From positions 1 to 64,000 of the forward strand of contig JAJEGF010000083.1 in NCBI GenBank assembly GCA_022820025.1: DNA of 64,000 nt. Direction: 5' to 3'. The stretch's first letter is position 1. Each line of letters opens with the position of its first letter. The stretch comes from Chloroflexota bacterium (GTDB lineage Bacteria > Chloroflexota > UBA11872). This document shows positions 1 through 15,645 of this stretch, piece after piece. The translations under genes were made by a program, and so were the position numbers. The notes under the pieces are model-generated. The model had not been told where the DNA came from. It did not search any database and worked only from the letters and a program-made list of their open reading frames with translations.

Positions 1-448
1 GCTCGATGTGCGGATAACGGTTCGCCAGCACGTCGAGGGTGTTGAGGTAGTTCATTCGCTGCTTGGCCGGGTCCCACTGCAAGATCACCTTTTGAAACGC
101 CTGCAACGTGAACGGTCCGTCCAGCCATCGCTGGCTGATCGGATAGCCAATGGCCTCCGCCTTTCGCTCGCGGACGAAGCTCCACATCGGCACGCCATCG
201 CCGTCGGTCACGGCGAACCCGTCATTCGGGTCCGGTGTGTCACCGCCGGTGTTGGCGAACAGGCAGCCACCGCTGATGGGGATGCCCACACAGTCCAGCG
301 CTCGTAGTGCCGTCACCGGACCCGCAAGGGTCAGGCTGGCCGCGGCAATGGCTGCCAGCCCCAGGCGAAGGCGTTCCCAACCTGATGTCCGACGCCGAGA
401 ACGCCCTCCTGCCGCGCGCGATGTCTGCTGAACGTCCGCGGTACGCAT
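1..448 (-). CDS. Secreted protein, GYPISQRW-type, cut by left window edge
   Basis: Reading leftward from an ATG at 446-448 the frame stays open to base 1, giving 149 residues of a protein that continues outside the window. Residues about 20-45 are a signal-like stretch: an arginine-rich n-region (RSRRRTSGWERLRLG), then a hydrophobic core ending near LAGPVTA. After it comes CVGIPISGGCLFANTGGD and, further on, AIGYPISQRWLDGPFTLQAF followed by QKVILQWDPAKQRMNY. I recall this arrangement as a secreted family of unknown function common in marine and sponge Chloroflexota. The two nearby Cys may form a disulfide. The role is unknown. The codon pattern is clean, unlike the decayed sequence to its right. 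Confidence 0.75.
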   Translation of the reverse strand, partial: MRTADVQQTSRAAGGRSRRRTSGWERLRLGLAAIAAASLTLAGPVTALRALDCVGIPISGGCLFANTGGDTPDPNDGFAVTDGDGVPMWSFVRERKAEAIGYPISQRWLDGPFTLQAFQKVILQWDPAKQRMNYLNTLDVLANRYPHIE

Positions 449-1468
449 GCTGTCGTCTTGATCTGAACGTTCGTTGAACCTGCCAGGCAACATTAGTAGG
501 GACTAACATCCCGAGTTGTGCCAGGGTAATAACGTGAACGAGCACTCCGAAACAACCTGTCTAAGTATGCGCTCATATGCATGTCTGATTATCCGGTGCA
601 AGGCGACTTATATGGTGCCTGTAGGAGTCTTTCTTCGTCAAGTGTCAGCCGACCACTCCTAATGGACTTGCTGATCGACCGCCGCGCACGACTGCTGGCA
701 AATCCGGGCTCGAAGATTCCGACTTGAATCCGTTGCAGCCCCTACGATCGGCCCGCCAACTCCCGGTCAAGGACTAGAAGAGCGGCTCCATCCCCACCCG
801 CATAGTAATGTGGGGTCGTACGGTGTTGCAGTTCATCGCTCCACTATGTGTGGGTGGCACGCTGGGCAGAGTCGGATCAGGATTCACACACAGTCACAGC
901 CCCTTGAGCGATGCATGTCTGCCATCGTCACGACGTCGGGCAGGTTGGTCGAAGCAGCTGGATACGAAGCGAGCGCCAAGGGATCATGAGTGGTCGAGTC
1001 CTGCCGCCGGGCATTGGGCATCTACCTCCGGCCGTCCGGCGGTCTCGCTTTACTGGAGTTAGCGAACCGGTGGCAAACGTGGCGATGTGACCGCGGAACG
1101 TGGAGGTGGTGTGTCTCACTGGCTCTTGGACTTGGGTGACCTACGGGCGCCTTGCGGGATGCGCTGTTAGTGAGCATGTCTACATTTTCCGTCACGGTCA
1201 CAGTGAGCACGGCGCGGCTTGCCTGGCTTTCCCATGTAGCCATTGCTCAGGCTAGTCCGAGGCCATCCTCCGGGACTCGTGTCGCGCCCGATCTGTCGAC
1301 GGGATACTCTCGTGACCGACGGGTGAATCACAGGATGTCGATTTTCCTGAAGCTTCTCGTGTCTCTTGAGGTCAGCGGCTGCCAAGGGCCACGGACTAGG
1401 CAACACCGCTGCCTCTGGGAGTCCGCCGGACGCGTTTGCGACCACTGACACGTCCGATCCACAAGCCA
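449..1468. other. 1-kb stretch without recognisable gene
   Basis: Short open frames occur on both strands but none shows a recognisable motif, ribosome-binding site or consistent codon bias. It is probably decayed or regulatory sequence between the secreted protein gene and repeat copy A. No tRNA, terminator or array was seen. Confidence 0.5.
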
Positions 1469-2113
1469 TACGGAATCCTGCCTTCCTCCCGGTTTATCAG
1501 TTCAGCACCCTCAGGTAAGACGCCCGTGCACGAAGAGGAGTCGGATGCCCCAGGGCGCGGCCTCGCCGATCTCCGGACGGCCACGGACGCCCCATACGCC
1601 ACGCCGTGGTCGCCGGTCCTTGGCCGCCTACTTCCGATGGGTCGACGACGTCTTGCGCCATCGCACCGACGGCTATCGGCTGCTCGACTCTCCGCTGGTC
1701 GGCCTGCCGGGCGTGCAACGGCTGGCCCGACGGCGCTTTCCCCGCAGCGCCTTTGGCGACATGCGTGCCGCGCAGGCACTCCTGCAGCAAGTCACGGAGC
1801 AGGCCTCGGAAATCCTGACCCCGTGGCAGGCCTTGGCCCTGCGGCTGTATTGCGAGGGGCAGCCCATGACCGCCATTGCGGCCCGACTGGGCCTGCGCAG
1901 CCGTCACCACCTCTGGGCCGCTTACCGGCGATCGGCGGTGGAGGCCGTGACCCGCGAGTTCCTGGCGCTGGCGCAGGCCGAATTTCCTCCGAATTAGGGT
2001 AGAATTCCCGTGCCATTGTTCCTGGAAGGGGGCAACGGCCTGTACATCGGCCTCGAAGCCGTAACAGGTGTGGGATGGCTCGCGAGGGGTGCGTGTCACC
2101 GCGGTACTTCTAA
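1469..2113 (+). repeat. Copy A of a ~650-bp dispersed direct repeat
   Basis: This segment matches 7238-7894 in the same orientation. It starts at the shared TACGGAATCCTGCCTTC and ends at the shared ACCGCGGTACTTCTAA. Outside these limits the two loci diverge at once. The unit carries one ORF (1545-1997) and a non-coding tail of about 115 bp. The tail differs between copies at only about ten positions, fewer than the coding part. No terminal inverted repeats or target duplications are apparent. It may be a small mobile element or a satellite moved by another element. Confidence 0.75.
1545..1997 (+). CDS. Small HTH protein of the repeat element (intact copy)
   Basis: A 150-residue basic protein. 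After an Arg/Pro-rich N-terminus come RWVDDVLRHRTDGYRLLDSP and a helical region. The C-terminal third, ILTPWQALALRLYCEGQPMT then AIAARLGLRSRHHLWAAYRR, has the layout of a sigma-70 region 4 or LuxR-type helix-turn-helix. I therefore infer DNA binding. I do not recognise a catalytic domain, so it is not an obvious transposase. The paralogue at 7315-7773 is broken by a stop codon, which argues that the family belongs to the repeat. The ATG lies 7 bases after a GGAG-like sequence (GAGGAGTCGG). Confidence 0.6.
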   Translation: MPQGAASPISGRPRTPHTPRRGRRSLAAYFRWVDDVLRHRTDGYRLLDSPLVGLPGVQRLARRRFPRSAFGDMRAAQALLQQVTEQASEILTPWQALALRLYCEGQPMTAIAARLGLRSRHHLWAAYRRSAVEAVTREFLALAQAEFPPN

Positions 2114-2224
2114 TACATAATTTGCTCGTTCGAAACTTGCTAGGCCAAACAGACTTTGTGAAGTCAAGAGCCTCTACTTTGAGGCTCGCTCTCGAACTAT
2201 AGGTTGAGTCTGTTTCCCAACCCA

Positions 2225-2800
2225 TCAGACGAGAACCCGCCAAGTAGTGGTGAGGCTAAGAAGGTTTGAGGAATTGCTAAGACGTAGCCCCACCTCCGTC
2301 TTCGATGCCTTCCCCCGCGTGGCCATTCGGTAGTCGACGCGAGGTTCGATGAAGATGTCGTTGGGATTGTCGGCGGCATCGCCCAGCTTGCGGCGGAGCC
2401 GCGTGACCATGTCGCGGCCCAGCCAGGGCTCGCCGACCTGTTCCGGCTTCCAGACTCGCTGGTGCCGCCCGGTGTCGGTCAGCACCCGGGCGGCGTGGCC
2501 CGCCAACTGCTTGAGCACCGCGTACTCGGTGGCCGTCATTTCCATTGGCTCCCCATCCACCATCACCCGGCGCTCGGCGCAATCGATGTGCAGTCCTGTG
2601 GCGGCGTAGGGGCAGACGGCTCGCCGTATTCGGGCTTCAGCCGCTTCCAGAGGGCTGCGTGGATCCGCGCAGCCAGCTCCGTCGGCGCGAAAGGCCCGTC
2701 GGTGTGCGCGCGGGCGCCGAAGGGCCCCAGGAAATGGGCGCCGAGACGGGATAACAGCCAGATTTCGGAGCTGATGGGCATTCTGTGATCGAAGCGTAAT
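2225..2800 (-). pseudogene. Response regulator remnant 1 (OmpR-type output domain)
   Basis: Read leftward, about 2800-2600 encodes the end of a degenerate receiver (GPFAPTELAARIHAALWKR). The frame then shifts near 2580, and 2566-2225 encodes an OmpR/PhoB winged helix (MEMTATEYAVLKQLAGHAAR, then DMVTRLRRKLGDAADNPNDI and EPRVDYRMA). The first two thirds of the receiver, with the phosphorylatable Asp, are missing, and the C-terminus runs into unrelated sequence. It is related to the remnants at 8688-8947 and 14938-15645. It is non-functional as it stands. Confidence 0.75.
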
Positions 2801-3490
2801 GCTCCGATGTCAGAACGACACGCTTCTGTCACGCGGAGTGCGTCAGGATGCACGGTGGAGGCGGTCCACCGGGGAGCGGCCAGCATGCAGGCGAGATGGT
2901 TACCCGCGCGCAGGGCGCGCGTCGGCCAAGCGTGGCAGGGGTCGGCCTCCGGTTCGGTGATCTGAGCACTTCCCCGACACATACCACCGTGGACTGGTTC
3001 GAGGTGGATCTGGCCAAGCTGAACGCGACGGCGGCCTTCGAGGTCATCGCGGCCAGCGACAGGACCGTGCTGGGGACCCGTGAGTCAGGCCGTGGCAGCA
3101 CCGCCGACTACCGCGACGTATCACCCTCCCACACTGCGGTCTGGCTGTCTCGTTTCCGCATTGAGTCGTCGTAGCGCGCGGACGGCTATGGACATGCAGA
3201 GGCATCAATCGTCCGGACCGCAGCCGATTACTCCATCGCCCAATGGCGTGCCGGCAGTCATCAAAGTTCTGCATTGCCAAGACGCCCGGATGTCGAGCTC
3301 TGGTGTGGCCCGTCACGGCTGGCAGCGGCTGCCTGGCGTGTGGTGGCGATTGATCGGCTGATGGGCATCACTTGCTCTTCCCGCGGGTTCCGACAGTTGG
3401 TGCTGGCTCCCGATCCCGTGCGGATTGAGAGTCGCCTCGGCGACTGTGCAAAGAAGCCAAAGGCACACTCGACACTTGGGCGGTTTGCCC
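2801..3490. other. Gap with a possible decayed coding fragment
   Basis: No intact gene. On the + strand, 2983-3174 encodes a segment (DWFEVDLAKLNATAAFEVIA, then TADYRDVSPSHTAVWLSRF) with the alternating pattern of a secreted beta-sandwich domain and its own stop codon. It has no start or preceding domain and could be the 3' tail of a lost surface protein. The rest, up to the phosphatase-like gene, shows nothing recognisable. Confidence 0.3.
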
Positions 3491-5776
3491 GTGCCTAGGT
3501 TGCTTTGGCTGGGCCCCGCGCTAGTCGCCCTCGGGCTACTGGCCAGTCTCGTCCCGCAGGTCACGTATCCATCAGCTTCAAGCGGCGAGCCGGAGGGCGA
3601 CGTGCTCATTGCCTGGCCTGGCTGGTCGATCCAACAGGATCTGGGGCCGCTGAGCGGAACCGTAGGCACGTTCCGGATTTGGATGTCGGCCGATCCCGAG
3701 GCCTATAAGGACCTAACGCTGAGCGCGTCACTGATTGACGCGTCGAGTCGCGACGTATTGCGGCAGGTGTTCACGACGGTGTCGCGACGCTATGTGCCGG
3801 TCGCGCACACCGTGTCGTTTCCCGGATTCGTCGTGCCACCCGGTAAGCGCCTCATGCTGCAACTTGGGGTGCCGGAGTTGCAGCAGCGCCATGTGATCTA
3901 TCGCTTGGCTCATCCGGATCCCGCACGGTCAAACGTGATGTTGAACGGCGTGCCCGATTCGGGGAATGGGCCGCTCGCGTTCGCGCACATACGGACAGGA
4001 AGCGGGATGCGGGCAGCAGCCGACGGTGACGTGTCGAGTCGGCTGCGTCTCTCAGTTGCGCTAGCGATGGGTGCGCTGGCTTTGGCCGCGCGTCCGCGAG
4101 TCGCGTTGGAGTTTGCACGATTCACAAGGGGCGCACAGGGCCAAGTCGGTCAGCAACTCGTTCGTATGGGGCGTGCTGTCACGACTGATTCCGGGCGAGC
4201 GATCGGCAGTTCATCATTCGGAGTCCATCGTCTGCTTGCGTCGCCCTGGTATCCCTGGCCGGCGGCGACGGTGCCAATCTTGCACTACGTAGCCAGTAAT
4301 CCGTTGCACTTCGAGATGAGCGAGTCGATCGCTCCGCTGGTCGTTGTGCAAGCGGCCGTGACTATCGGCGTGGTCGGCCTGCGGCTGTGGTTGAGAGACT
4401 GGCATCGACCGGCTGCGATTTGCGCGGTGTGCATCGTCGTCTTTTTCGGCTACGGGCACATTGCGGGCGCAATTGACGGGAGACATGACGACCGCGTGAC
4501 CTTCGCAGTGGCCGCAGTGTTCGTTGCGACCGTCGCCCACCTGATAATCCACCGAGGTGCATCGGCTGTCCGGCTCGCGCCGTTTCTCAATCTGATGACC
4601 GCTATCTTGTTGGTATTTCCGATTGCAGGCGTCGTGACCGACACAGCGATGGCACAACGGTCGGCGGCGTCGTCAGAGCCGGAGAGCTTGGAGGATCTCG
4701 CCGCTCACCTTCTGCCAGCTGGCCTCCCCGACGTGAGCGTGAGTCCTCCGGACATCTACTACATCATCCTTGACTCCTATCCGCGTCACGATGTTCTTCT
4801 TGACTATTATCACTTCGACAACTCGCACTTCCTACGTGACCTTGAACGAAGGGGCTTCTATGTTGCTCGGGGGGCGACAAGTAACTATAGGCCCACACAC
4901 CAATCCATTCCATCGGTCCCGAATATGGCGTACCTCGACGGACTTGGTCAGCGAGTGCCTTCGTCACTTGACGAGCTAGCGAAGCTCGCTCGCTACAATT
5001 CGGTCGCTGCACTTCTCAAGTCAGTTGGATACACGTATGTGCACTTGGATACCGGCTATGTTGTCACGGACACATCGCCACTTGCCGATCGCGTCATTTC
5101 GTTCACGACATCCGGCACGATTGTCCGTACAGGAACGGATGCCCGCGTTCTATCCGCTTCGAAGACTGGGACTCCGCTGCTATCAGATCGATTCATACGT
5201 GGGCTAATTCAGACGACTGCACTAAGCGTAGTATTTGCCGATCGCACCTTCTTCGTGCAGAGCGTGCCGCTAGAATGGTGGTCGCCGCGTCGAGCAAACC
5301 TAATGTTCGAATACTTGTCTTCACCGATCGATGCTGAGAATCCTAAGTTTGTTTTTGCCCATATCGTTAAGCCGCACGCGCCATACACGTTTGACCAATA
5401 CGGTAATTTCGTCGGCGAAAAGGGACGATTTGACGACCTTCACGATCCAAGCGTTCCTAGTGCGTATATCGGTCAGCTCAAGTACGTTAATAGACGAGCG
5501 CTGGAAATGATCGACGGGATTCTCCAGCATAGTCAGCCTGATTCGCCAATCATCGTAATCACAGGCGATCATGGTGGCGAGTTCGAGGGCGCAGATGAGC
5601 ACGCGATACTCTCCGCGTTTCATCTACCTAACCGAGGCAGCGACAGACTCTACGGCACGATAAGCCTAGTCAACCACTTTCGCGTCATTTTTGACTCTTA
5701 TCTTGGGACCCGTCTGGGACTGTTGGAGGATTTGGAACATACCCACTCTACCAGAATGGTTGACTTTGGAATATAG
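3491..5776 (+). CDS. Membrane-anchored alkaline-phosphatase/sulfatase-superfamily protein
   Basis: About 761 residues. An N-terminal membrane anchor (LLWLGPALVALGLLASLVP) precedes an extracytoplasmic beta domain (DLTLSASLIDASSRDVLRQV), then several further membrane segments, for instance AAICAVCIVVFFGYGHIAGA. The C-terminal 330 residues have the alkaline-phosphatase fold signature: DIYYIILDSYPRHD (first metal ligand), SNYRPTHQSIPS (likely Thr/Ser nucleophile region), FAHIVKPHAPY and VITGDHGGEFEG (DHG metal ligands). The layout resembles LtaS/phosphoglycerol-transferase-like membrane hydrolases, and the substrate is unknown. The start is uncertain: I chose GTG 3491 just before the first membrane helix, though the frame is open from TTG 3425 and neither has a good ribosome site. 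Lower GC toward the 3' end suggests transfer. Confidence 0.8.
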   Translation: MPRLLWLGPALVALGLLASLVPQVTYPSASSGEPEGDVLIAWPGWSIQQDLGPLSGTVGTFRIWMSADPEAYKDLTLSASLIDASSRDVLRQVFTTVSRRYVPVAHTVSFPGFVVPPGKRLMLQLGVPELQQRHVIYRLAHPDPARSNVMLNGVPDSGNGPLAFAHIRTGSGMRAAADGDVSSRLRLSVALAMGALALAARPRVALEFARFTRGAQGQVGQQLVRMGRAVTTDSGRAIGSSSFGVHRLLASPWYPWPAATVPILHYVASNPLHFEMSESIAPLVVVQAAVTIGVVGLRLWLRDWHRPAAICAVCIVVFFGYGHIAGAIDGRHDDRVTFAVAAVFVATVAHLIIHRGASAVRLAPFLNLMTAILLVFPIAGVVTDTAMAQRSAASSEPESLEDLAAHLLPAGLPDVSVSPPDIYYIILDSYPRHDVLLDYYHFDNSHFLRDLERRGFYVARGATSNYRPTHQSIPSVPNMAYLDGLGQRVPSSLDELAKLARYNSVAALLKSVGYTYVHLDTGYVVTDTSPLADRVISFTTSGTIVRTGTDARVLSASKTGTPLLSDRFIRGLIQTTALSVVFADRTFFVQSVPLEWWSPRRANLMFEYLSSPIDAENPKFVFAHIVKPHAPYTFDQYGNFVGEKGRFDDLHDPSVPSAYIGQLKYVNRRALEMIDGILQHSQPDSPIIVITGDHGGEFEGADEHAILSAFHLPNRGSDRLYGTISLVNHFRVIFDSYLGTRLGLLEDLEHTHSTRMVDFGI

Positions 5777-5819
5777 CAGCATATGATGCAGGGCGATCAT
5801 TAGATAGAAGTCCCAACTG

Positions 5820-5841
5820 GGCGGGTAGTTTCGAACCCGCC
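5820..5841 (+). terminator. Possible hairpin after the phosphatase-like gene
   Basis: A 7-bp perfect stem (GGCGGGT/ACCCGCC) with an 8-nt loop lies 44 bp after the stop codon. There is no T-run, so a factor-independent terminator is only a weak call. Confidence 0.25.
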
Positions 5842-5866
5842 GGACGGAGCGATGAGAGCCTTCTAG

Positions 5867-6803
5867 GTGTACTGACCACACAGAGATGTGAGACACGGCT
5901 GACCGGTGGCTGACCATCGAGGGAGCCGTGGCAACGACGCCGGTTATACCACCGCAGCCAGCTGCCAAGGGCCCGCGTGCGATGGGCGCTGGAGGAGTAG
6001 GCGAACGCGTACGCCCAACTGCGCAGCAGGATCTGGGTGAAGCGTTTCGCCTTGCCATTGGTGCGGGGCGTGTAGGGGCGGGTACGCAGATGGTGCAGGT
6101 CGTGGGCGGTGCATCGCTGGCGCCACGCGTGCGAGCGATAGGCGAAGCCGTTTTCCGTCATCACGGCCTGTACCGCCAGCCCCTGGGTGCGAAACTACGC
6201 CAGCGCGCGGTCCAGGAAGGCCAGGGCGTCGGCTTGGCGATCCGTCGGCCGCACTTCGGCATAGGCGAGCCGCGAATGGTGGTCGATGGCGACATGCACG
6301 TGCTGCCAGCCGGCGCGGGGGCTGCGGCACACGCCATCCTGCAGGATCCGCTGGCCGACGTGCCAGCAGCGGCCCAGCTGCTTGGTGTCCAGGTGCAGCA
6401 GCTCGCCCGGCTGGGCACGCTCGTAGCGCACGACCGGGGGCCGCGGGCGGCGGGCGAGGCCCAGCCGCCGGAGCCCCTGGCCCACCGTCGAGGCGGGGCG
6501 GCCCAGCAGGCCGCCGAGGGTGACGGGGCCGGCTCCACTGCGCTGACGCGTCGCCAGGATTTTCGCTTCCGCGCTCGGACTCAGGCAGCGGGGCTGCCGC
6601 GTGGGGGTGGATCGGCGCTCCTGCAGCCCCGCCCAGCCAGCGGCCGTGTAGCGCTGCCCCCAGCGATAGCCCGTGGCGCGGCCCGCGCCGACGGCCTGAG
6701 CGGCGGCTCCCGGACTTGCCCCCGCCACCATCGCGGCCACGGCACGAGACCGCGTCTCGAACGAATAGCGCATACGCTGGGGCCGCCAGGAAGCATCAGC
6801 CAT
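5867..6803 (-). pseudogene. IS481 transposase, amber stop and catalytic Glu lost
   Basis: The N-terminal half (6803-6198) has the helix-turn-helix part and the first two DDE aspartates in LLHLDTKQLGR and VAIDHHSRLAYAEVRP. An in-frame TAG at 6195-6197 follows FLDRALA. The same frame then continues (VMTENGFAYRSHAW, PYTPRTNGKAKRFTQILL, WLRWYNRRRCHGSLDG). The normal NGKAERF reads NGKAKRF, so the third catalytic residue is Lys rather than Glu. The frame runs through the left inverted repeat to 5748 without a stop of its own. Two independent lesions make this dead. Confidence 0.8.
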
Positions 6804-6898
6804 CGGGACCTCCGTCGGGCTCTGGATTGTTTGGTAGCCCCAGTCTCGCTGGAGGTCCCGCTACCGTCAGGTGTCTCGCTGGTGTGTAGTCAGTACAC
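5867..6898 (-). mobile_element. IS481-family insertion sequence with CTAG target duplication
   Basis: The 1032-bp element is bounded by 16-bp terminal inverted repeats, GTGTACTGACCACACA on the left and GTGTACTGACTACACA when the right end is read inward (one mismatch). CTAG flanks it on both sides (5863-5866 and 6899-6902). CTAG is the known preferred target of IS481. The transposase inside is broken, so the copy can move only if another copy supplies the enzyme. Confidence 0.85.
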
Positions 6899-6902
6899 CT
6901 AG

Positions 6903-7237
6903 TGACCGGCAGGACGTGATCCTGTCCGTGTCCGGCCAATTGGGGCCGCCTAACGACGCCGGGCTAGCGGCTGCTTCGTGGCCTGTGAGCACGTGGACGA
7001 GGCCGAGAGGCGACGCGTCGTCGATAGGCAGAGGTTAGGGAGTGAGATCGAGCGAGGATCGAAGCCCAACGGGCACCCTCGTACAGTGAATTAGTTGCTC
7101 GATCCGGACGCACGCGCACGCCTCGACCACCTAGCCGTGCGCGTCGACGATGCGAATAGATCGAGCAACAACGTGAACGGACCTACAACGCCTGACGTCC
7201 TCCTGTCGCCCCGACAATGCGGGCGACTGACCGTGCG
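6903..7237. other. Gap between IS481 and repeat copy B
   Basis: 335 bp with no recognisable gene or RNA. It contains short imperfect palindromes only. Confidence 0.5.
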
Positions 7238-7894
7238 TACGGAATCCTGCCTTCCGTCCGGGTGCTCTCGTCGGCACCCTGAGATCATCCCGCCTGCGGA
7301 CCTGGAGGATCCGGATGTCACAGACCGATGCGGCGTCGATCTCCGGACGGCCACGAGCGCGCCACCCGTCGCGCCGTGGCCGCCCATCCTTCGCCACCTA
7401 CTACCGATGGGTCGACGATGCCCTGCGCCACCACACCGACGGCTTTCGCCTCCTCGACTCTCCATTAGTCGGCCCGCCGGGCGTTCAACGGCTGGCCCAC
7501 CGGCGCTTTCGCCGCAGCGCCTTTGGCGACGTGCGTGCCGCACGGGCGCTCCTACAGCAAGCGACCGAGCAGGCCTCGACGATTCTGACCCCGCGGTAGG
7601 CCCTGACGCTACAGCTGTATTGCGAGGGACACCCCATGACGGCTATCGTGGCCCGGCTAGGCCTGCGCAGCCGCCAACACTTGTGGGCGGCCTACCGGCG
7701 CCCGGCGGTGAAAGCGGTCGCCCGCGAGTTCCCGGCGCTGGCGCAGGCGGAATTTCCCTCGTATTCCCCGTGAATTAACGTAGGATTCTCCTGCCATTGT
7801 TCCTGGAAGGGGGCAACGGCCTGTCAACCGGCCTCGAGGCCGTAACAGGTGTGGGATGGCTCGCGAGGGGTGCGTGTCACCGCGGTACTTCTAA
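7238..7894 (+). repeat. Copy B of the ~650-bp dispersed direct repeat
   Basis: Same boundaries as copy A at 1469-2113. The tail at about 7774-7894 keeps the potential outer pairing CCTGT/ACAGG around an inner CGGCCTCGAGGCCG hairpin. Copy A has the same outer pairing and a slightly weaker inner stem. Copy B directly abuts a serine recombinase fragment on its right, and the recombinase frame, read leftward, ends inside the repeat tail. Confidence 0.75.
7315..7773 (+). pseudogene. Small HTH protein of the repeat element, interrupted copy
   Basis: This is the paralogue of the 150-residue ORF at 1545-1997. An in-frame TAG at 7597-7599 (after ILTPR) replaces the Gln codon found at the same place in copy A. 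The frame then continues through LQLYCEGHPMTAIVARLGLR to a TGA at 7771-7773. Otherwise the protein aligns end to end, including the N-terminal GRPRARHPSRRGRPSFATYY segment. The stop falls just before the helix-turn-helix, so any truncated product would lack the inferred DNA-binding part. Confidence 0.65.
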
Positions 7895-8465
7895 GCACTG
7901 AGCCAAGAGTTTGAATCTCGTCAAGTAGGCCAGACTGGACGAAATCGAGAACCGGGGTCGACTCGCGAGTCACGCCGTCGTTGGGCATGGGGATGGTGTA
8001 CGTCAGCGTGGCCTCGTCTCCCACCACCTCGATGCCCTCCACGAAGTTGCGAATCAGGGCTTTGCGCTCGGGGATCGTGCCTTCGTGCAAGAACACCCGG
8101 AAGTCCACCACATACGCCTTGACCTCCTCGGTGGTCGGCAGCTCCACCCGGCGCTGCTCCAACCGAGCGGCGGCGTTCACCCGCGCCGCCTCCAGGTGCT
8201 CCTCCCGGTGCCGCAGCGACAGGATGCGGGGCGACAGGGCCTCCAGGGTCAGCGCGCTGGTCTCCAGAGCGTCGTAGAGCCGCTCCAGCCGCTGGCGCAC
8301 GTCCGCGAACCCGGCGTCGATGACCGCCAGCCGGCCGGCCAGTTCACCGGCCTTCGCGTCGTCCGGAAAAATCTGGAGGAGCCCTGCGAGCGTGATGTCC
8401 CGCCGAAACTGCTTTCCCGCCAATGCCAACTCCGTGTGCTGGGCGTCAGCGGGGGCACTCCTCCC
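7895..8465 (-). pseudogene. Large serine recombinase, C-terminal fragment 1
   Basis: Read leftward from 8465, the frame encodes the coiled-coil and C-terminal part of a large serine recombinase: QFRRDITLAGLLQIFPDDA, then LYDALETSALTLEALSPRIL, and VDFRVFLHEGTIPERKALIR with NFVEGIEVVGDEATLTYTIP. The catalytic serine domain, recombinase domain and zinc ribbon are absent. The 5' junction at about 8450-8465 abuts a membrane-protein ORF. The 3' end is joined to repeat copy B, which supplies the stop at 7824. It is a dead remnant of an integrated element. Confidence 0.75.
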
Positions 8466-8628
8466 ACACCAAGCCAAGCAGCCAGTTGGTCAGCCGGAAT
8501 ACGGCCACGGCGGCCAAGACCGTCAGCATGAGCGCCATCACCACGAGCATGACGAGAAGGGCGAGGCCCATGACCCAGAAGAATGCGTAAAGCAGGCCAC
8601 CGACGAACGTTTCGTCGAACAGGTTCAT
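8446..8628 (-). CDS. 60-residue membrane protein
   Basis: An ATG at 8626-8628 opens a short frame (MNLFDETFVGGLLYAFFWVM, then GLALLVMLVVMALMLTVLAA) with one long or two short membrane helices and a C-terminal WLLGLVWEECPR. It starts divergently from response regulator remnant 2. Its 3' end lies at the junction with the recombinase fragment, so the C-terminus may be truncated. The function is unknown and it could itself be a remnant. Confidence 0.4.
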   Translation of the reverse strand: MNLFDETFVGGLLYAFFWVMGLALLVMLVVMALMLTVLAAVAVFRLTNWLLGLVWEECPR

Positions 8629-8687
8629 GCCCACCCTTGCTCCGGCGCTCTTACGACGTCTCAGTCTAGAATGGCTGGGCGCATGTC

Positions 8688-8947
8688 CGGTGGAACTCAC
8701 CCCAACGGAGTATGCGGTGCTCGTCGAGCTGTCCGCCCATGCCGGGATAGTCGTGACCCACGACCAGTTGCAGCTCAGAGTCTGGGTCGTGGGCCACTCC
8801 GCCGATTCGGGGCTGCTGCGGACCATCGTGACGAGGCTGCGCCAGAAGCTGGAGGACAATGTCAATGAGCCCCTATACATCTTCATCGAGCTGGAGGTAG
8901 GGTACCGCAAGGGCCCGGTGGACAAATCGAACGAGGAGAAACTCTGA
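8688..8947 (+). pseudogene. Response regulator remnant 2 (output domain only)
   Basis: This encodes an OmpR-type winged helix: PVELTPTEYAVLVELSAHAG, VVTHDQLQLRVWVVGHSA, TIVTRLRQKLEDNVNEPLYI, ELEVGYRKG. The receiver domain is missing; the sequence before 8688 belongs to other genes. The match to remnant 3 continues past the stop for about 60 bp (AACGAGCTTGAGCAACGCCT in both), then is lost. The loci therefore descend from a duplicated neighbourhood that, at remnant 3, still includes a universal stress protein gene. Confidence 0.7.
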
Positions 8948-14937: not shown

Positions 14938-15645
14938 ACTCGGGTCCTGGCGGTGGTCGACAACCCCCTGGACCTGCGCTACATCCGGGACGCCCTGACC
15001 CATGTGGGTTACGTCCCCATCGTGACCGCCGACCCGGACGATGTGCCCCGCCTCATGGAGGAGGAGCGTCCCCACCTGGTGCTGATGGACCTGGTGTTGC
15101 CGGAGAGCGAAGGGGTGAAACTCATGGAGGCCATCCTGGCGACCACCGAGGTTCCCGTGATCTTCGTCTCCGCCTACGGCTAGGAGGCGAACGTCACCAG
15201 GGCGCTGGACATGGGGGCCGTGGACTACGTGGCCAAGCCCTTCGCGCCCTCGGAATTGGGGGCCAGGATACGCGCCGCGCTCCGGCAGCGGGCCGGACTG
15301 GGCCGGGCGGGACAGCCCCAGCCCTACGCGCTGGGGGACCTGGCTATCGACTACGCCGAGCGCCGGGTGGCCCTGGGCGGACGTCCGGTGGAGCTCACCC
15401 CGACCGAGTACGGGGTACTCGTCGAGCTATCGTCCCATGACGGGATGGTCCTGACCTACGGCCAGCTGCTGCTCAGGGTCTGGGGCCTGGGCCACTCCGG
15501 TAACTCGGGGCTGGTGCGGACCATCGTGAACAGGCTGCGCCGGAAGCTGGGGGACAACGCCAACGCCCCCTCCTACATCTTCAACGAGCCGGGGGTCGGG
15601 TACCGCATGGGCCGGAGTGAACAATCGAACGAGGGGAGACTCTGA
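14938..15645 (+). pseudogene. Response regulator remnant 3, near full length with TAG
   Basis: The receiver (RVLAVVDNPLDLRYIRDALT, LVLMDLVLPESEG with the phospho-Asp, VPVIFVSAYG) is stopped by an in-frame TAG at 15181-15183. The frame then resumes with the conserved Lys (MGAVDYVAKPFAPSELGARI) and the OmpR winged helix (RPVELTPTEYGVLVELSSHD, RTIVNRLRRKLGDNANAP, GYRMG). The start codon is missing because the left junction cuts into the first strand. It is followed 70 bp later by a universal stress protein gene. Confidence 0.75.

Follow-up and report, generated by a model that had tools for sequence, protein, structure and literature searches.

The window analysed here, a stretch of 64,000 nucleotides (G000:C48:1-64000) from a 3.63-Mb genome in 92 contigs, begins with two copies of a repeat of about 650 bp, copy A at 1469–2113 and copy B at 7238–7894, each carrying a 150-aa open reading frame (ORF) and a strongly conserved tail, as an initial annotation had described. 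What this repeat is, and what moves it, is the question raised by the locus. Judging from what the sequences show (the anatomy and target of the islands, their empty and arm sites, the selection acting on the protein, and the cargo), we consider it very probable that integrative islands inserted by a tyrosine recombinase have this repeat as their conserved distal end, and that the helix-turn-helix (HTH) protein encoded by the ORF is the likely partner of the recombinase. The 650 bp are not in themselves the mobile unit that the annotation had tentatively suggested, and instead form the far end of units of roughly 3–22 kb.

Anatomy of the repeat and its copies

Copy A lies on the forward strand and consists of a conserved leader (TACGGAATCCTGCCTTCC...) with a ribosome-binding site upstream of the ORF (1469–1544; identified by alignment and pattern search), the gene of the 150-aa protein with its C-terminal sigma-region-4-like HTH (1545–1997), the tail (1998–2106) with the motifs ACGGCCT-N8-GCCTCGA (2035–2056) and AACAGGTGTGGGA, and the heptamer CTTCTAA (2107–2113). 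Copy B has the same order and strand, with its leader at 7238–7314, an ORF (7315–7770) that is a pseudogene with an in-frame TAG at 7597, and a tail (7771–7894) ending in CTTCTAA at 7888–7894. Tails A and B are 93% identical over 123 nt, and the tail is less diverged than the ORF in most pairs of intact copies, which bears out the initial observation. Of the sharp boundaries claimed for the repeat, the right one stands, CTTCTAA at 2113 and 7894 being a true recombination boundary, while on the left TACGGAATCCTGCC, at positions 1469 and 7238, only opens the conserved leader, upstream of which homology continues (window 807–2070 against a unit in G006:C27). As this left boundary is only a leader motif shared with other island genes, we rejected the idea that the 650 bp form a free element bounded on both sides.

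The DNA before copy A (1–1468, forward strand) belongs to a unit truncated at the start of the contig, of which it is the right-hand portion, and 807–1468 is homologous to the matching part of the G006:C27 unit. A complete integrase-less unit follows on the same strand (2114–7894), composed of a degenerate left end resembling a tRNA 3' half (2114–2152), cargo encoding a 783-aa protein with a Sulfatase domain (PF00884; 3425–5776, forward strand), an IS insertion and the HTH/tail module of copy B. Both ends of this unit and parts of the sulfatase gene are homologous to a 4.6-kb unit, G006:C27:100407-95827. The insertion, located between the sulfatase gene and copy B, is an IS481-like transposase gene with a broken frame (5862–6900) and inverted ends AGGTGTACTGACCACACA.../...TGTGTAGTCAGTACACCT. 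Just past tail B lies what is left of a large serine recombinase, a truncated C-terminal piece (7824–8477, reverse strand) whose frame enters the tail and which is homologous to full serine recombinases of relatives (E 1.9e-28). A serine recombinase was nevertheless rejected as the mover, since no gene with a resolvase-domain match was found in G000 and the fragment is a remnant. Trans_reg_C-type winged-helix ORFs recur in several units (window 2225–2566, reverse strand; 8627–8947 and 15367–15612, forward strand) and near a tRNA-Gly integrase (further copies are at C16:49120-49383 and C26:30183-30425), and possibly represent a second mobile-element regulator.

Seven tails were found in the window's genome, two on the contig of the window (C48), four on a single strand of C26 and one on C70. 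Six of 60 relatives, three of the window's genus and three of a sister genus, carry three to nine tails each, mostly in same-strand arrays. These copy numbers are far beyond chance. The cargo of the units includes a type IIG/ISP restriction-methylation enzyme, AbiEii-like genes, PD-Lambda-5 A/B, a PifA-like KAP ATPase and nSTAND3 proteins, names given by PADLOC on similarity that denote a predicted defence function, beside other genes such as that of the sulfatase-domain protein of the window.

Target sites, integrase and attachment arms

At its right end the tail stops precisely with CTTCTAA, which is the sequence of the tRNA-Arg(UCU) anticodon loop. The displaced 3' half of this tRNA gene follows the outermost tail directly in G000:C70, G005:C65, G008:C175 and G014:C14, and in the last three a complete tRNA-Arg(UCU) of the same orientation lies 26–49 kb away at the opposite end of the array (from intact gene to fragment, 343956 to 314883, 26559 to 53218 and 173395 to 124687, respectively). 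The intact tRNA-Arg of G000 was not found in this draft genome, whose contigs break at repeats. Empty tRNA-Arg sites, with the same neighbour genes on both sides and nothing inserted, are present in G003:C4 and G006:C26. There is also a second, non-tRNA target, the last bases of which match the tRNA-Arg anticodon stem-loop (ACGGCCTTCTAAG); this look-alike site forms the right-hand end of a stretch preceded by a tRNA-Gly(UCC) gene and another integrase (C16). In G000:C16 and G006:C35, its left junction (T5', ...CCCACGGCCTTCTAA) leads into a tRNA-Arg 3' half with an integrase, and in G005:C45, G008:C65 and G006:C27 into differing integrase-less units. The unit after T5' in G006:C27 is the homologue of window unit 2114–7894, which instead follows tail A. 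In G008:C65, a 112-kb island (12–111928) reaching from tRNA-Gly(UCC) to its displaced 3' half holds an array of Arg-type units; another Gly-type end, a diverged one, is found at 114405.

At their far end, the traceable arrays have either an intact tRNA-Arg or a look-alike site, together with a tRNA-Arg 3' half brought by the element and a tyrosine recombinase (PF00589). The recombinase gene is oriented as the array and lies next to the head tRNA or tRNA-like junction, directly after the complete tRNA-Arg in G005:C65, G008:C175 and G014:C14. The C70 integrase matches PF00589 with E 9.5e-35 and, judged by eye, has its R, K, HxxR, H and Y residues intact. By class the integrase is XerC/D-like, its best scores being to Xer models and below their cut-off, and it reached 64.5 bits against the cut-off of 265 for the integron-integrase model TIGR02249. 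Two contig ends (G000:C16:62524-62643 and C70:16656 downward) share an identical stretch, the integrase's first 40 codons, which marks an assembly break inside a repeated integrase.

Motifs of the tail are found again across the crossover. The sequence TCCCAAACCTGTT, the inverse of the tail's AACAGGTKTGGGA, stands exactly +58 from the core with 0–4 mismatches in 13/13 element-derived left ends, that is, a tRNA-Arg 3' half followed by an integrase or its remnant. At the same position, the seven chromosomal tRNA-Arg ends (four displaced halves and three uninterrupted genes) show 9–12 mismatches and 0/7 have the arm; an eighth pattern match, a tRNA-Lys, likewise shows 9–12 mismatches. In direct orientation, ACGGCCT-N8-GCCTCGA recurs about 112–135 bp beyond the core, and about 36 of 39 matches to the bipartite arm ACGGCCT-N-GCCTCGA in 831 kb fall at tails or P' arms. 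A one-base difference in the spacer kept an ungapped 27-nt test of the direct arm from discriminating, whereas the bipartite motif did discriminate. Because the inverted motif at 58 bp separates element-derived from chromosomal ends in this way, we read the tail as one arm, the P arm, of the recombinase attachment site attP, and the annotation's suggestion of a recombination site moved by another enzyme is upheld in this form.

We infer a model in which the XerC/D-like tyrosine recombinase (PF00589) at the head would catalyse the insertion of islands into the CTTCTAA of tRNA-Arg(UCU) or its look-alikes (ACGGCCTTCTAAG). In it, the tail of about 115 bp is the P arm of attP, with arm-type sites recurring, inverted or direct, on the P' side beside the integrase gene. 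The element supplies its own tRNA-Arg 3' half, so that the tRNA is restored at the integrase end and the old 3' half left beyond the tail, and successive insertions stack units in a single orientation. Upon circularisation, the gene of the 150-aa protein is predicted to lie just upstream of attP and int, and the direction or level of recombination would most likely be set by the protein through binding to the attachment site or to the promoter of int.

The HTH protein

Among 13 intact copies, the HTH ORF has a median dN/dS of 0.11, indicating that the 150-aa protein is under purifying selection; other copies, including copy B in the window, are pseudogenes, and within the arrays a large number of HTH genes and tails show degradation. 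Of the genomes searched, 10 of the 19 belonging to the window's family carry the protein family, against none of 22 others of the class. PHROGs and NCBIfam models gave no convincing match, and the protein falls below the cut-off of Pfam HTH_23. In the predicted model (pLDDT 81), the N-terminal part is entirely helical and the C-terminus forms an HTH whose closest fold is sigma region 4 (SigE 2h27, TM to target 0.72–0.74, but E above 1). Foldseek returned no match at E<=0.001, and no significant similarity to known directionality factors was detected. Like RdfS (PMC11963761), it is a small HTH protein whose gene shares an integrative element with that of a tyrosine recombinase; the HTH of RdfS is of the winged type, whereas the protein here combines a predicted sigma-region-4-like HTH with an N-terminal helical domain of its own and has no detectable sequence relation to it. 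A virus or plasmid origin was rejected, as viral_contigs and PLSDB contain no relative of the HTH protein.

Paralogues of the protein keep comparable positions elsewhere, in the company of related integrases on tRNA-Gly and tRNA-Leu islands. In three genomes (C40, G006:C27 and G008:C65), the displaced tRNA-Gly 3' half is immediately preceded by a Gly-family paralogue, and a Leu-family paralogue directly follows the integrase on the same strand at five places by coordinates (C3, G005:C59, G017:C30, G013:C10 and G005:C44) and by sequence too in L122 and L123. The leader TACGGAWTCCT stands upstream of at least some members of the Arg, Gly and Leu families. A genome-wide search with the leader pattern gave eight matches, all on island contigs, and none for the reversed-pattern control. 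In all three families the HTH gene is found beside a tail or int, the position expected of a directionality factor. The annotation had also postulated a DNA-binding protein belonging to the element, which this conserved gene supplies, and we infer that its product is the recombinase's partner, acting as a directionality or architectural factor, or as a regulator. The leader (TACGGAWTCCTG) also precedes non-HTH island genes, at G000:C16:55454, C3:26776, G008:C65:61352 and other places, one of them apparently AAA/ParA-like; because these genes are unrelated to the HTH protein, the leader may be an island-specific promoter or operator.

Alternative readings, arrays and known systems

The tail might be a structured RNA, as the annotation had suggested, or a regulatory 3' element of the HTH transcript, but we now hold this to be very improbable. 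The proposed hairpin (CCTGT/ACAGG with CGGC/GCCG) does exist: it is formable in 96% of the cells of an alignment of 32 tails from two sister genera (104 nt aligned, zero gaps), and the tail lies directly 3' of the ORF. In these 32 sequences, however, no pair has changed on both sides, so that the covariation test proposed at the outset failed, and an Rfam search of the tail gave no match. Moreover, the tail ends at the crossover, and its motifs recur beyond it beside int, where the HTH transcript of an integrated element does not reach, as protein-binding arms would. The conservation of the tail therefore appears to be that of protein-binding arms flanking a tyrosine-recombinase crossover, and not that of a folded RNA. 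A tRNA or tmRNA encoded by the tail was rejected as well (ARAGORN and Rfam negative), and a weak 20-bit tRNA match at C70 is merely the tail joined to the displaced 3' half. An ordinary duplicated chromosomal gene, which the annotation had named as one case that would overturn its proposal, would also be conserved and under purifying selection, but the 3–9 tails per genome in ordered arrays, the common recombination boundary and the displaced tRNA fragments speak against it and the empty sites in relatives rule it out, leaving it practically no weight. The HTH protein could instead be a transcription regulator of cargo or element, either a sigma-like activator or an immunity repressor, and not a recombination partner. 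Its C-terminal fold, like sigma region 4, and the leader motif shared with other island genes make this a possibility worth keeping, but the gene stays by the attachment site or integrase in the Arg, Gly and Leu families despite changing cargo, and we lean towards the recombination partner.

The arrays bear on how the islands move. About 29 units are fully delimited, of which about 22 have no integrase match, a hand tally from tail positions and integrase matches; unit counts are lower bounds, the closely examined relatives all being draft genomes with contigs that break at repeats. Since most array units have no integrase, they either decay or move in trans. If complete islands had simply been stacked, most units should not have non-Arg left ends and lack an integrase. 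In an integron-like alternative, the head integrase would move integrase-less units in trans through their common HTH/tail end, and the arrays would be cassette stores rather than dead islands. The number of integrase-less units, their retained HTH/tail modules, the different units behind the one T5' junction in G000, G006, G005 and G008, and the unit type found after T5' in G006:C27 and after tail A in the window would all fit. However, intact, truncated and missing integrases stand side by side in the G006:C35 array, so decay contributes; the left ends of most integrase-less units are without the P' arm, and no common P'-like arm was found in them; and internal HTH genes and tails are often degraded. 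We judge this cassette reading rather unlikely. The fuller version, a tRNA-anchored, integron-like platform on which the head recombinase, aided by the HTH protein encoded next to the tail, would capture, order and reshuffle integrase-less multigene defence cassettes with a common HTH/tail end, with parallel tRNA-Arg, -Gly and -Leu versions, is speculative and also rather improbable.

Distal ends of tyrosine-recombinase islands remain the preferred reading, and the system is one of tRNA-targeting islands of a known general kind. It shares with Islander-sense islands (PMC4383910) the integrase, an attP with a tRNA 3' fragment, the restored tRNA with its displaced fragment, the anticodon-loop crossover and tandem islands; an internal tyrosine integrase, a tRNA with a same-orientation fragment and an empty site in a relative were all found here. 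It differs in array length (three or more units), in members that mostly have no integrase of their own, and in the conserved HTH gene/attP-arm module that marks the distal unit end. Among 3919 islands, 2083 of them anticodon-centred, Islander lists 125 tandems of two or more and only 4 of three or more, counting a tandem only if every member has its own integrase and tRNA fragment (PMC4383910), which the integrase-less majority here does not, although this is not needed for an island as such. Tycheposons, compared by their description (PMC10872708), are alike in tRNA border, XerD-like tyrosine recombinase and large variable cargo (4–200 kb), and differ in phylum and cargo, which is defence here. 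With integrons the islands share a recombinase at the array head and single-orientation units, each ending in a conserved recombination-site module. In contrast to integrons, TIGR02249 scores far below cut-off, the possible hairpin of the tail shows no covariation of the attC type, the multigene units measure about 3–22 kb and the target is a tRNA; by these sequence features, integron membership is not supported.

Literature searches yielded no description of such a system in Chloroflexota. An uncultured Chloroflexota family thus holds a large pool of islands with defence genes whose exact ends, targets and arm sites are now available, and therefore circles and unit exchange can be searched for in reads. 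The undescribed HTH family, travelling with several tRNA-specific tyrosine recombinases, is a candidate for a new kind of directionality factor, and the long arrays of mostly integrase-less units raise the question of whether tRNA sites serve as integron-like stores. A tRNA T-arm-like sequence lies near the core in 15 of 26 left ends of integrase-less units, against 0–4 at control offsets. These degenerate, non-Arg sequences after the core resemble tRNA 3' halves, several with an encoded CCA (window 2114–2152 and 7895–7933 are examples), and two such left ends, in G013:C2 and G014:C14, are identical for 39 bp up to the CCA and diverge completely beyond it.
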